DNA from: Bacteroidota bacterium
Lineage (GTDB): Bacteria; Bacteroidota; Ignavibacteria; Kryptoniales; JAKASW01
Direction: 5' to 3'
Assembly (NCBI GenBank): GCA_021825585.1
Contig: JAKAGT010000004.1
Span: forward strand, 1-64,000
Length of the DNA: 64,000 nt
Shown in pieces: positions 59,647 to 64,000 of this stretch (its first letter is position 1; the number at the start of each line of letters is the position of its first letter). Both the position numbers and the translations under genes were made by a program. The notes under the pieces were generated by a model. The model was not told the origin of the DNA. It made no database searches and worked only from the letters and a program-made list of their open reading frames with translations.

Positions 59647-60335
59647 CCAAATTCATTCTTGTGCTGTTCATAACTTCCGTCGCAGCTGCCCTCGTTACTC
59701 AACAAGCTGAAGCACAGCTTAAAGTGGTCGGGGGAAATGACATCAGCTTCGGGAGAGTATACCAAACCGGCAAGCTGGTACATAAGAAGATTGCTTTGAA
59801 AAATGTGGGAACGGACACAATATCAATCGGCGGAATTACCACAAGCTGCGGCTGTACCGTCGCCTCGATTACCGACAGCGTCCTCACTCCTGGCGAGGAA
59901 AGTGAAGTGAAAGTTCAGTTCAACCCGACCGGATACATAGGCGAAGTCACAAAATACGTTTATATCACTAACACTTATCCGCAGTCCCGGCTCGTGACCG
60001 TGAAGATGACAGGGAACATCGTGTACGCGCTTCAGCCGACGCCCAGCTACATCGTGTTCAACAACATAATCAAGGGGCAACCGGACAGCGGCAGCGTCAC
60101 GCTCAGCAACACATCGGATGAGACGATTCGTATAACGAAAGTGGAACTTCCCTCCCCGGAATTGACCTACAAGCTTAAGAAGAAAGTATTGAAACCGGGG
60201 GAGTTTTCGGATCTGGATATCTACGTCGACAGCACCGCGAAGAGCAGCATAGACGGTTATGTCAGGGTAAAAACGACGAGCAAGCTACAGCCCGTGCTTC
60301 AGTTAAGGATGTTTGTCGGTATAATCGGAAATTGA
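59643..60335 (+). CDS. DUF1573 exported protein
   Basis: 230 residues. Signal peptide (KFILVLFITSVAAALVTQQA). DUF1573 block: FGRVYQTGKLVHKKIALKN, TTSCGCTVAS with the typical CGC, and a second Ig-like repeat to the end. These proteins are exported in Bacteroidota and of unknown role. Starts at the ATG at 59643, which overlaps the preceding TGA. Confidence 0.9.
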   Translation: MTKFILVLFITSVAAALVTQQAEAQLKVVGGNDISFGRVYQTGKLVHKKIALKNVGTDTISIGGITTSCGCTVASITDSVLTPGEESEVKVQFNPTGYIGEVTKYVYITNTYPQSRLVTVKMTGNIVYALQPTPSYIVFNNIIKGQPDSGSVTLSNTSDETIRITKVELPSPELTYKLKKKVLKPGEFSDLDIYVDSTAKSSIDGYVRVKTTSKLQPVLQLRMFVGIIGN

Positions 60336-60339
60336 AAGG

Positions 60340-61605
60340 CTAGGCCGATGCCTGCTTCCGGCTGGTGAGAAACACCGGATCAGCGCCTGAAAGGACAACT
60401 TCCTTCGTAACGATGCATTTCGAAACGTTAGACATCGAAGGGAGGTTGTACATTATATCGAGCATTTTTTCTTCTATGATGGACCTGAGTCCCCGGGCTC
60501 CGGTCCCGCGGTCAATTGCCTTCTCAACGATAGCCATCAAAGCTTCGTCCGCAAATTCAAGCTCGACCCCTTCGAGTTTGAAAAGCTTCTTATACTGCTT
60601 GACCAACGCGTTCTTAGGCAGGGTCAATATGTCCTTCATGGATTCCCTGCTCAGAGTGTGAAGCGTAGCGACCACGGGGAGTCGGCCGATAAATTCAGGT
60701 ATCAATCCGAACTTTAGCAGATCGTCGGGCTGAACGAGCGGCAGCAGTTCGTTCACTTCGGTGTCGTGGATCGAGTGGATTTCTGCGCCGAAGCCGATCT
60801 CATTCCTGTTCGTACGCCGCCCTATCACCTTCTCCAATCCCTCAAAAGCTCCGCCGCAGATGAAGAGGATATTTCTCGTGTTGACGTTGATGAGCGGCTG
60901 CTCAGGATGCTTCCTTCCTCCGCGCGGTGGAACTCCGGCCGTAGTACCTTCCAGGATCTTCAGCAGAGCCTGCTGAACCCCTTCTCCGGACACATCCCGC
61001 GTTATCGACGGGGTGTCGCTCTTGCGCGCAATCTTATCGATCTCGTCGACATAGACTATTCCCCGCTCGGCACGCGTCACGTCGTAGTCCGTATTCTGCA
61101 ATAAGTGGACGAGAATGGTCTCGACATCGTCACCGACGTATCCCGCTTCAGTCAGGGTAGTGGCATCGGCTATGGCAAAGGGGACATTCAGTATTTTCGC
61201 CAGGGTCTGGGCAAGAAGGGTCTTGCCCGTTCCTGTAGGACCGATCAGTAGAATATTGCTTTTCTCTATCTCCGTATCGTCTTCAGAAGAGAGGCCGGTT
61301 GGGAGAGAGATTCGCTTATAATGGTTATAAACAGCGACAGATAAGATTTTCTTGGCGTGATCCTGCCCTATCACATACTCGTCGAGCGCCTCCTTGATTT
61401 CCGCCGGAGTCAGAGGCGCCTTCTCGGAATATTCCCTTTGAGGTTGTTTGTACGCCGGTATGTTGCTTCGCAGAATTTCGACCGAATGTTCGACGCAGAT
61501 GTCGCAGATATATACGTCACCCGGCCCCGCGACGAGGCTCTTTACCTCTTTCGCCTCACGCCCGCAGAACGAACAACGCATATCTTCCTGGTGCTGTTTA
61601 CCCAT
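60340..61605 (-). CDS. clpX: ClpX ATP-dependent unfoldase
   Basis: 421 residues. N-terminal zinc-binding domain (CSFC...CDIC), Walker A GPTGTGKT, Walker [11 protein letters not shown], and the C-terminal [11 protein letters not shown]. The IGF-loop for ClpP docking is likely in the middle (GIGF-like REIGFGAE region). Unfolds proteins for ClpP. Confidence 0.97.
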
Positions 61606-61611
61606 TGAAAA

Positions 61612-61731
61612 CTAAGATTCCTCTTCAATATCCTTTTGACGTTGTGCCTTCAAGTCAGCAATCACCGTTGGAACCGCTATGGTGAACAGGACTACGAAGA
61701 CCAGAATTACAAGCAGAAACAAACTGCCCAT
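61612..61731 (-). CDS. Micro-ORF: 39-residue membrane protein between clpX and clpP
   Basis: ATG at 61731 to TAG at 61612. The first 24 residues are one hydrophobic helix (SLFLLVILVFVVLFTIAVP), then a charged tail (DLKAQRQKDIEEES). A GGAG lies 14 nt upstream and AAGAAC adjacent, so the ribosome binding site is only fair. The gap to the clpX start is 6 bp. It fits a single-pass small protein of the clp operon; no family is recognised. Confidence 0.5.
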   Translation of the reverse strand: MGSLFLLVILVFVVLFTIAVPTVIADLKAQRQKDIEEES

Positions 61732-61758
61732 ATGTTCTTATTCAACTCCGAGTTAGTT

Positions 61759-62370
61759 TCACTTCTTTTTGCCTTCTCGCTTGATCAATACATTGTCTAT
61801 CAAACCGTACTTTACAGCGTCTTCGCCGGACATAAAATAATCCCTGTCCGTGTCTTTTTCAATTTGTTCGATCGGTTTCTTGGAATGGAGGGAGAGTATC
61901 TCGTTCAGCCGGCGTTTCGTCTTGATGACCTCTTCTGCCTGAATACTGATATCCGCCGCGGAGCCCTGGAAACCGCCCCACGGTTGATGAATCATTATCC
62001 GGGCGTTGGGAAGCGAGGTCCTCTTGCCTGCAGCGCCGCCCGCGAGCAGAACCGCCCCCATGCTTGCTGCCAGGCCGACACACGTGGTCGCAACATCCGG
62101 CCTGATATACTGCATGGTATCGTAAACCGCCAAGCCTGCCGAGACGCTGCCGCCGGGACTGTTGATATAGAGATTTATGTCCTTGCTCGGTTCTTCGCTC
62201 TCGAGGAAGAGAAGTTGAGCGATTACAAGACTCGCGACAGTGTCATCGATTTGCGTACCGATGAAGATGATTCTTTCCTTCAGCAGCCTCGAGAAGATAT
62301 CGTAGGCCCGTTCGCCGCGACCCGTCTGCTCGATTACGTAGGGAATTGTAAGTTGGTTGTAGATTTCCAT
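61759..62370 (-). CDS. clpP: ClpP serine peptidase
   Basis: 203 residues with catalytic Ser103 in [12 protein letters not shown] and His128 in [10 protein letters not shown]. Typical N-terminal region with axial gating loop. It assembles to a 14-mer with ClpX. Upstream of clpX, downstream of tig, in the normal order. Confidence 0.97.
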
Positions 62371-62374
62371 TTAG

Positions 62375-63661
62375 TCAGTCCTCGTGTTCGTGTGTCGGTT
62401 CTTTGTCGACAACCTTTATTTCAGCATTGTCAACGATGAAATTAAACATCTCGTTGAACAACAGTTTGTTCTTAACATCGTTTGAATTCTTGTAGAAATC
62501 AAGCAGTTTGTTCCGATCCATCCTGTACTTCGACGCCTCGTCGTCCGCCGTTCGCTCCAGTACCGCATCGTCCACCTTAAGACCTTCTTTCTGTATTATG
62601 GCCGCGGCGAGGAGATTCCATTTGACCGCACGTATCGACGATTCTCTGTAGCGTTCCTTGACTAAACTTTCGTCCACTTCCTGGTTCCGCGACTCTTTCT
62701 TCAATTCTTCTATGAGGTCGTTCAAGTAATCTTCGACCATGCTATCAGGAACTTCGAACTCATTCGTTTTCAGAAGCTCTTCCGCAATTTTGCTCCGGAG
62801 TTCTTCTTCTGCTTTTTCTTCATAGTAATGCTCAAGTTCCCGCTCGATGTCTTTCTTGAGCGCGTCCAGGCTCTCCATCTTCCCGCCAGATACCTTCTTC
62901 GCAAATTCATCGGTAAGATCGGGCATCACGTATTTCTCGAGCTTCTTCACCAGTACCTTGAACGGTTTCTTCCCGGTAGGTTCACCTTTCTTGCCATAAG
63001 TCTCGAGTTCCATATTGAACTCATCGCCGGGCTTGCTTTTCACGAGCCTGTCGCGTATTTCGCTGAGTTCCGGTGCCTTGCTCCTGAGATCTATCCGGTA
63101 GTTCTCCCTGCGCTGTCCGATCAAGGGTACACCTTTTTCATCGATGACCTGAAGGTCGACCGTGGCCATAGCCCTCTCGTTTTCCAGCGAATCTGTCTCC
63201 TGCAGCTCCGCGTTTGCCTCCTGGATATGCATCAGCTCATGCTCTACACTCTCAGGAAGAATCCGGTACATCGACCTTTCGAGCTTCATTCCCCTGTAAT
63301 CCCTGGGCTCAATATCAGGAACTACTTCGTATGTCAGACGGAAATGGAGGGGCTCCCCGATTTTTCTTTCGTCGAGATTGTAGTCGACGACCCCTGCCAC
63401 CTTCGTGTTCTCTTTCTCAAAAATTCCCTTGACGATTTCGTTCACAATGTCCGGAATCGATTCGGATTCAATATCTTCGCCGTACCTCTTCTTCACTATG
63501 GCAAGAGGAGTCTTCCCCTTTCTGAAACCCGGCACGGCCGCATTACGCTGAAATTCCGTATATGCACTCTCAAATTTATTTTTTACCTGCTCATCTTCTG
63601 CAGTTGCAGTCACCTCGAGTTGCTTCTTTAGTCCACCTAAATCTACGATGTTGTAATCCAC
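62375..63661 (-). CDS. tig: Trigger factor
   Basis: 428 residues: ribosome-binding GFRKGKTP motif at the N-terminus, PPIase-like middle (VDLQVIDEKGVP), and C-terminal substrate-binding helices. The start codon is GTG at 63661, preceded by AAAAGGAG. It lies 22 bp after the nested tRNA locus and may share its transcript. Confidence 0.95.
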   Translation of the reverse strand: MDYNIVDLGGLKKQLEVTATAEDEQVKNKFESAYTEFQRNAAVPGFRKGKTPLAIVKKRYGEDIESESIPDIVNEIVKGIFEKENTKVAGVVDYNLDERKIGEPLHFRLTYEVVPDIEPRDYRGMKLERSMYRILPESVEHELMHIQEANAELQETDSLENERAMATVDLQVIDEKGVPLIGQRRENYRIDLRSKAPELSEIRDRLVKSKPGDEFNMELETYGKKGEPTGKKPFKVLVKKLEKYVMPDLTDEFAKKVSGGKMESLDALKKDIERELEHYYEEKAEEELRSKIAEELLKTNEFEVPDSMVEDYLNDLIEELKKESRNQEVDESLVKERYRESSIRAVKWNLLAAAIIQKEGLKVDDAVLERTADDEASKYRMDRNKLLDFYKNSNDVKNKLLFNEMFNFIVDNAEIKVVDKEPTHEHED

Positions 63662-63682
63662 TTTTTCTCCTTTTGATTAATG

Positions 63683-63876
63683 TGCGAGAGAGGGGACTTG
63701 AACCCCTACGAGTTTCCTCATCCCGCAAAACCCTCCTTGCCTTCGTGGGTAGAGGGGGAGTCGAACCCCCATCCCGTTCCCGGGACTAGCTCCTAAGGCT
63801 AGCGCGTCTGCCAGTTCCGCCATCTACCCGCTGAAGAGTTTTGCGGGACGCGTCTGCCAAATTCCGCCACTCTCGC
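63683..63876 (-). tRNA. Outer Leu-type tRNA with the anticodon loop replaced
   Basis: Minus strand. Acceptor GCGAGAG/CTCTCGC, D arm GCGGAATTTGGCAGACGC, type II variable arm GAGGAAACTC, T arm AGGGG-TTCAAGT-CCCCT, discriminator A, no CCA. All arms pair. The anticodon stem TCCCG/CGGGA is intact but the loop is replaced by 118 nt: TCCCGCAAAACTCTTC and GGAGGGTTTTGCGGGA extend the stem to 16 bp, with the complete tRNA-Leu(UAG) (63746-63829) at the tip. No choice of 7-nt loop gives the universal U33, so no anticodon is readable. It may be a pseudo-tRNA, a scaffold or a split-type gene. Confidence 0.75.
63746..63829 (-). tRNA. tRNA-Leu (anticodon UAG), nested in the outer tRNA
   Basis: Minus strand, 84 nt. 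Acceptor GGGTAGA/TCTACCC, D arm GCGGAACTGGCAGACGC, anticodon arm CTAGC-CTTAGGA-GCTAG giving TAG, variable arm CCCGGGAACGGG, T arm GGGGG-TTCGACT-CCCCC, discriminator A. A perfect cloverleaf. No CCA is encoded. It lies entirely inside the anticodon loop of the outer tRNA. Confidence 0.95.
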
Positions 63877-64000
63877 AGGTCTTAAAATATAACCTTTGGA
63901 GGCCCAATCTTCAAAGACAGCCTGCCCCCCTTCCCACGCCTCAAATTCGACCAATTCCGCCGAATACGAGATGTGTTAGGGTTCCGACCTGCCTGCCGCG
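63877..64000 (-). other. Upstream end of the window
   Basis: Contains the promoter above. An upstream minus-strand frame that ends in TAA near 63883 shows no family and no start inside the window; nothing else is supported. Confidence 0.4.
63886..63914 (-). promoter_or_regulatory. Promoter of the nested tRNA locus
   Basis: Minus-strand TTGAAG (63909-63914) and TATATT (63886-63891) are separated by 17 bp. The predicted start near 63879 lies 3 bp before the outer tRNA 5' end, so the outer tRNA is transcribed first and reads on towards tig. Confidence 0.7.

Follow-up and report, generated by a model that had tools for sequence, protein, structure and literature searches.

A tRNA-Leu(UAG) gene nested in place of the anticodon arm of a second tRNA-Leu gene, with similar nests in several bacterial phyla

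Nested tRNA-Leu genes upstream of tig

We analysed a 64,000-nt stretch of DNA (the window; positions 1 to 64,000 of contig JAKAGT010000004.1, assembly GCA_021825585.1) from a Bacteroidota bacterium of the class Ignavibacteria, whose genome, here called G000, comprises 88 contigs with 4% contamination. At 63683-63876 on the minus strand lies an outer tRNA-Leu gene with perfect acceptor, D, variable and T arms, in which the 17-nt anticodon arm is swapped for a 16-bp inverted repeat enclosing an inner tRNA gene. Read from 63876 to 63683, with the insert in parentheses, the order is GCGAGAG-TGGCGGAATTTGGCAGACGCG-(TCCCGCAAAACTCTTC-AGC-tRNA-Leu(UAG)-GAAGGCAA-GGAGGGTTTTGCGGGA)-TGAGGAAACTCGT-AGGGGTTCAAGTCCCCT-CTCTCGC-A. 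The features are as follows, with G003 and G006 denoting un-nested and nested members of the same genus.

63870-63876, minus strand: outer tRNA-Leu, 5' acceptor strand GCGAGAG; 7 of 7 pairs with 63684-63690; same as the un-nested G003 tRNA
63849-63869, minus strand: outer tRNA-Leu, D arm and junction TGGCGGAATTTGGCAGACGCG; same as G003, partly replaced by a palindrome in G006
63833-63848, minus strand: left arm of the inverted repeat, TCCCGCAAAACTCTTC; 16 bp with 63721-63736
63745-63829, minus strand: intact inner tRNA-Leu(UAG); ARAGORN, Rfam and the genome tRNA list
63721-63736, minus strand: right arm of the inverted repeat, GGAGGGTTTTGCGGGA; all-Watson-Crick partner in G006
63708-63720, minus strand: outer tRNA-Leu, variable arm TGAGGAAACTCGT; same as G003
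63691-63707, minus strand: outer tRNA-Leu, T arm AGGGG-TTCAAGT-CCCCT; same as G003, a single loop difference in G006
63683-63690, minus strand: outer tRNA-Leu, 3' acceptor strand CTCTCGC and A73; 7 of 7 pairs with 63870-63876
63884-63915, minus strand: probable promoter, TTTG...TATATTTT, Bacteroidota-like -33/-7, just 5' of the outer tRNA
62375-63661, minus strand: tig (trigger factor), 21 nt 3' of the outer tRNA; Pfam Trigger_N 1.8e-27, Trigger_C 4.8e-23

The putative promoter stretch is visibly conserved across the genus. A first-pass annotation of the window had described Leu-type arms closing around an intact tRNA-Leu(UAG), and its coordinates and pairings check out. The helix of TCCCGCAAAACTCTTC with GGAGGGTTTTGCGGGA indeed spans 16 bp including two G-U pairs, and the insertion is structured, as had been proposed: the 194-nt span adopts the nested fold with an energy of -94.7 kcal/mol and a z of -4.6, which none of 200 shuffles equalled. 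The inner gene forms a complete cloverleaf with its anticodon and scores 56.8 bits against an Rfam cut-off of 29; ARAGORN and Rfam detect this tRNA alone and leave the outer one uncalled. The two belong to distinct tRNA-Leu(UAG) types (GGGTAGA inside, GCGAGAG outside). No complete tRNA with an anticodon results from joining the outer halves, the anticodon arm being absent in both G000 and G006, and the outer tRNA is, as previously stated, unable to decode.

The insert (63721-63848), tRNA included, measures 128 nt and so leaves no room for an integrase gene. A Rfam scan of 60000-64000 found no ribozyme core, returning the inner tRNA and one match under its family cut-off. Neither junction has a copy of CTTAGGA in direct orientation as an att core; the ends of the insert are inverted repeats.

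Among the 47 tRNAs of G000, every class II tRNA was typed (four Ser; Leu UAA, CAG, GAG and the nested UAG; Tyr), and the inner gene is the only tRNA-Leu(UAG), reading codon CUA, found in the assembly. It is therefore probably essential. The same set is without a tRNA-Leu(CAA), such that the reading of UUG would fall to tRNA-Leu(UAA).

Filled and empty sites within the genus

At the same site before tig, G003 has an uninterrupted outer tRNA, GACGCG-CTGGACTTAGGATCCAG-TGAGG, which is a normal tRNA-Leu(UAG). By comparison, precisely the 17-nt anticodon arm CTGGACTTAGGATCCAG is replaced in G000 and G006. Given that the whole outer tRNA of G003 has the anticodon UAG, the outer gene of G000 was formerly a tRNA-Leu(UAG). 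The insert had initially been placed within the anticodon loop; the nesting within the outer tRNA holds, but the entire arm was exchanged rather than the loop being interrupted.

The nest of G006, a distinct species with an independent assembly and the sister of G000 in the trigger-factor tree (support 1.0), is identical in layout. Its flank helix consists of 16 Watson-Crick pairs, and the two G-U pairs of G000 are thus differences that preserve pairing. In the outer 3' half, to which the G000-G006 alignment of the outer tRNA was confined, differences occur in loops only. The outer D arm of G006 is broken (GCAGACGC to TCCCGATAATCTCGAAGAGATGTATCGGGA), and a second TCCCG...CGGGA palindrome is located there. 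In most remaining members of the genus, the tRNA-Leu(UAG) is of the GGGTAGA or GGGCACG type and its outer gene has decayed; this decay is far advanced in G001, G002 and G007-G012, with GCGAGAG...CTCTCGC still at the edges in G007.

The first-pass annotation had reckoned that a relative with an uninterrupted outer tRNA, along with an assembly break, would overturn the nested arrangement. Such a relative exists in G003, but a break is not supported: because the independent assembly of G006 has the nest, G003 represents the un-nested state and not a sign of misassembly.

Recurrence in the class and in other phyla

A tRNA-Leu D arm within another tRNA-Leu D arm was found at eight places in 7 of 391 genomes of the class, as compared to one for the reversed pattern. 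One of the eight, L078 in G203, is a 5' fragment beside tRNA-Leu(CAG) and not a full nest. Counted partly by eye, nests number about 12 in the class, about 17 outside it and about 28 in total, distributed over Ignavibacteria-type Bacteroidota, Patescibacteria, Elusimicrobia and Kiritimatiellaeota. The junction seen in the window, GACGCG followed by TCCCGCAAA, is common to G199, G203 and G211, and the left-arm start TCCCGCAAA is found in these three and in G245, G324 and G173; identical TCCCGCAAA arms sit on differing outer tRNAs. In G073, G021 and G226 the inner gene is nested at the junction of D and anticodon arms, and the outer anticodon arm is retained.

A survey of one family, anchored on tig, found the same arrangement upstream of this gene in relatives, where it had been suggested to look. 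Nests were present in G199, G203, G211, G173 and G309, and un-nested GGGCACG tRNAs preceded tig in G263, G049, G191, G355, G195, G218 and G092. The same-genus pair of G263 (empty) and G211 (filled) again differs by the exact replacement of a 17-nt arm, CTAGCCTTAGGAGCTAG. Nests of more than one layer were observed in G245 and G324, and an intact tRNA followed by stacked outer 3' halves in G286, G254 and G207. Palindromes resembling the TCCCGC type lie in the outer T loops of G226, G173, G211 and G286 and of loci L096 and L235. In G211, the anticodon loop of the inner tRNA itself contains about 48 kb with a tyrosine-recombinase (phage-integrase) gene (Pfam 3.8e-27), as would be expected if the inner tRNA is a live gene. 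This insertion corresponds to loci L074 and L241 (contig C55, about 69-117 kb).

Nesting of class I tRNAs was also sought, and no true nest was found among 382 genomes of the class; the scan gave tRNA-Thr 5' copies with TCCCG hairpins, or adjoining an intact tRNA-Thr. At L233 (contig C285 of G184), near-tandem tRNA-Leu 5' halves with TCCCGATTTATCGGGA as the anticodon arm form an array that runs to the end of the contig.

Scanning 84,980 named genomes yielded 84 stretches, many of which consist of a 5' half ahead of an intact tRNA and are not nests. Nests with both outer halves were recognized in Elusimicrobia (L084), Kiritimatiellaeota (L139), two unclassified genomes (L094, L157) and Patescibacteria (L089, L097, L098, L103, L111, L115, L117, L118, L131, L137, L138, L141, L148). 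Matches in Flavobacteriia, Solobacterium and Lachnospiraceae, which have only a 5' half and an intact tRNA, were rejected as nests and left uncounted. In several genera of Flavobacteriia (L080, L083, L101, L146, L154 and similar loci) the tRNA-Leu 5' half lies directly 5' of an intact tRNA-Leu(CAA), probably a different kind of tRNA-gene remodelling.

The window and 73 loci from the scan were tested automatically for an outer 3' half, and 19 of these 74 had one, as compared to 29 of 740 when flanks were swapped as a null. Among the 19, L113 and L151 are genes in tandem and not nests. A flank helix at p<=0.01 accompanied 9 of these 19 loci and 1 of the other 55. Wherever the outer anticodon survives, the inner tRNA is its isoacceptor: UAG within UAG in G073, G021, L137 and L141, CAG within CAG in L096 and L098, and CAA within CAA in L097.

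Possible origin of the nests

The flanks of the nest resemble a dispersed family of TCCCG...CGGGA palindromes, which would link the nest to REP-like palindromes. The pattern TCCCGC(N10-40)GCGGGA outnumbered its reversed-pattern control by 69 to 6 in G000, 43 to 4 in G003 and 46 to 9 in G203, and in a 428-kb sample TCCCGC palindromes with arms of 7 or more numbered 13 against 2 in the control. In other families, TCCCG hairpins of 15-17 nt exactly replace the anticodon arm in tRNA-Leu and tRNA-Thr copies adjoining intact genes. G000 has ten matches to Y1_Tnp (PF01797), one in a RAYT-like gene and another, in an IS200-like gene, near two TCCCGC palindromes; its RAYT/IS200-type Y1 proteins are encoded on contigs C16 and C34. 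By eye, a RAYT-like gene seems to begin just 3' of the tRNA-Leu at L100 (Patescibacteria), which contains a nested 5' half. A tandem array built on TCCCGCACAAGCGGGATGACCTCTGCGTGGGCTCTA (contig C6, 2086-2602) adjoins a tRNA at C6:2614 in G000. The idea of an integron attC site (GTTAGA in L089 and L107) was dropped, being limited to two loci.

The nesting, the exact replacement of the arm, the sole copy in the assembly, the recurrence, the isoacceptor match, the decay of outer genes and the palindrome enrichment are all observed. We consider it likely that the nest records the replacement of a tRNA by an inverted-repeat cassette, which destroyed the resident gene and supplied a substitute. The resident tRNA-Leu(UAG) upstream of tig would have had its anticodon arm exchanged for a tRNA-Leu(UAG) between inverted repeats, a single step that both killed the resident gene and supplied a working tRNA. 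Because the cassette brings the same isoacceptor, the cell would have survived. The inner tRNA would be the present functional gene, probably transcribed with tig from the old promoter and released by normal tRNA end-processing, and the outer gene a relic free to decay, whose acceptor and T portion may still indicate the ends for processing. Such a history would explain why the isoacceptors match, why there is a single copy, why outer genes decay and how multi-layer nests arise. Given the resemblance of the arms to the dispersed palindromes, the likeliest carrier would be a REP/REPIN-like single-strand palindrome that a Y1 transposase of the RAYT/IS200 type moved, with recombination perhaps fixing it.

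Several points weigh against this reading. The palindrome count in G000 is inflated by the one tandem array on C6, exact copies of the 16-nt arm are absent elsewhere in G000, and perfect inverted repeats of at least 8 bp show no excess in the sample from this genome and a slight one in others. Arm sequences vary by phylum (a CCTGCC type, AT-rich types), and the nests are tied to no particular transposase. REP transposition is not known to replace an anticodon arm exactly. Polarity within the genus is also weakly supported, with trigger-factor tree values of 0.58-0.73 around G003 that fit both one nesting with a reversion in G003 and several separate nestings.

More speculatively, such cassettes may be selfish "break and rescue" elements that target the anticodon-arm palindrome of an essential tRNA gene, destroy that gene and create host dependence on the copy they carry, although we regard this as doubtful. 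Every fresh copy would then offer the next target, and repeated rounds would produce nests within nests, as in G245 and G324, and piled-up outer 3' halves, as in G286, G254 and G207.

The main rival, which we hold to be somewhat improbable as a general account, involves no mobile element: local duplication of the tRNA and hairpin-driven template switching at the anticodon-arm hairpin would set one copy within the other and build the inverted repeats, and gene conversion would then make the copies alike. Duplication had been suggested from the outset for the window, a suggestion borne out only in part; inner and outer genes are near-identical in parts of G203, G245 and L098, where this process may operate. 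In G043, G061, G116, G166 and G192, intact tRNAs are preceded by tandem 5' copies in which a TCCCG hairpin stands where the anticodon arm should be; the G192 leader was duplicated together with the tRNA. Yet inner and outer genes are different tRNA types in G000, G211, G309 and G021, identical TCCCGCAAA arms are combined with various outer tRNAs, and the TCCCG palindromes are of dispersed occurrence.

We find it unlikely that the nest is the scar of a tyrosine-recombinase integrative element that brought a replacement tRNA and was later deleted save for that tRNA. Elements and phages of this kind do target tRNA genes and preserve function through sequence borne by the insert; the recombinase gene within the inner tRNA of G211 is consistent with such a scar, as are an apparent second recombinase gene (by eye) after the tRNA-Leu(CAG) with a nested fragment at L078 and the Flavobacteriia and Solobacterium loci in which a tRNA 5' half precedes an intact tRNA. 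The actual G211 element looks different, however, repeating the 5' half and making no inverted repeat. The nest flanks are without a duplicated anticodon-loop core, and the reaction is not expected to give perfect inverted repeats or loss of the whole anticodon arm. Unlike these elements, the nest inserts are about 120-250 nt, carry no integrase, contain a whole tRNA, end in inverted repeats and remove the anticodon arm, leaving the old gene broken on both sides.

Retention of the outer tRNA as a structured RNA (a scaffold, a split-tRNA-like molecule or a non-decoding leucyl-tRNA) appears very unlikely. The outer body is perfect at the G000 locus and in L084, L104, L148 and L157, outer 3' halves of G000 and G006 differ in loops only, and differences between the two genomes in the helix retain pairing; Escherichia coli LeuRS is not known to need the anticodon. 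Against these stand the destroyed D arm of G006, the T-loop palindromes and the near-loss of the outer gene in most genus members. Such free mutation speaks against the scaffold or split-tRNA role initially proposed, and the decay of outer copies makes it unlikely.

The possibilities that the nest arose in assembly, or that two tRNA-Leu genes simply lie in tandem, can be set aside, for although nearly all examples come from draft or metagenome-assembled genomes, and G000 is itself fragmented and slightly contaminated, the nest in G006 together with the whole outer tRNA in G003 excludes assembly error and identifies the outer gene as a broken former tRNA-Leu(UAG), outer pairing is perfect across the insert, and nests occur in unrelated assemblies from many projects.

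Replacement by a nested cassette can also be compared to known systems. With REP/REPIN palindromes and RAYTs, the nests share inverted-repeat arms that resemble a dispersed family of palindromes, the presence of Y1 genes in the genome and TCCCG palindromes inside outer relics; they differ in that the loop carries a tRNA gene, that the swap for the anticodon arm is exact and that the mobilizing enzyme is only a candidate. Rickettsia palindromic elements likewise insert palindromes into genes, but we know of none that brings a replacement for the gene it enters. Group I introns of bacterial tRNA-Leu(UAA) also lie in the anticodon region, whereas the nest insert has no Rfam intron match and contains a tRNA; with the anticodon arm lost, nothing could be spliced back. 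The split and permuted tRNAs of archaea and algae resemble the nest in having halves joined by an extra helix. In contrast, halves of the type seen in the window have no anticodon arm and nest outers decay, and bacteria, as far as we are aware, have no splicing endonuclease.

Bacterial tRNA genes have been described as surprisingly uniform, with group I and II introns as the only significant exception (2014 review, PMC4033280). As the first-pass annotation had supposed, we found no description of nested tRNA genes in the open-access literature. What would be new is the gene architecture; palindromes, Y1 enzymes and tRNA targets, which are its suspected parts, each belong to a known kind. Nests of tRNA within tRNA in at least four phyla, sometimes more than two layers deep, would add a new arrangement to bacterial genomes, and their repeated occurrence across distant phyla points to an undescribed one-step route by which an essential tRNA gene is destroyed and replaced. 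The filled and empty sites also offer cases in which the exchange of an essential, single-copy tRNA gene can be followed. The outer genes are missed by annotation tools.
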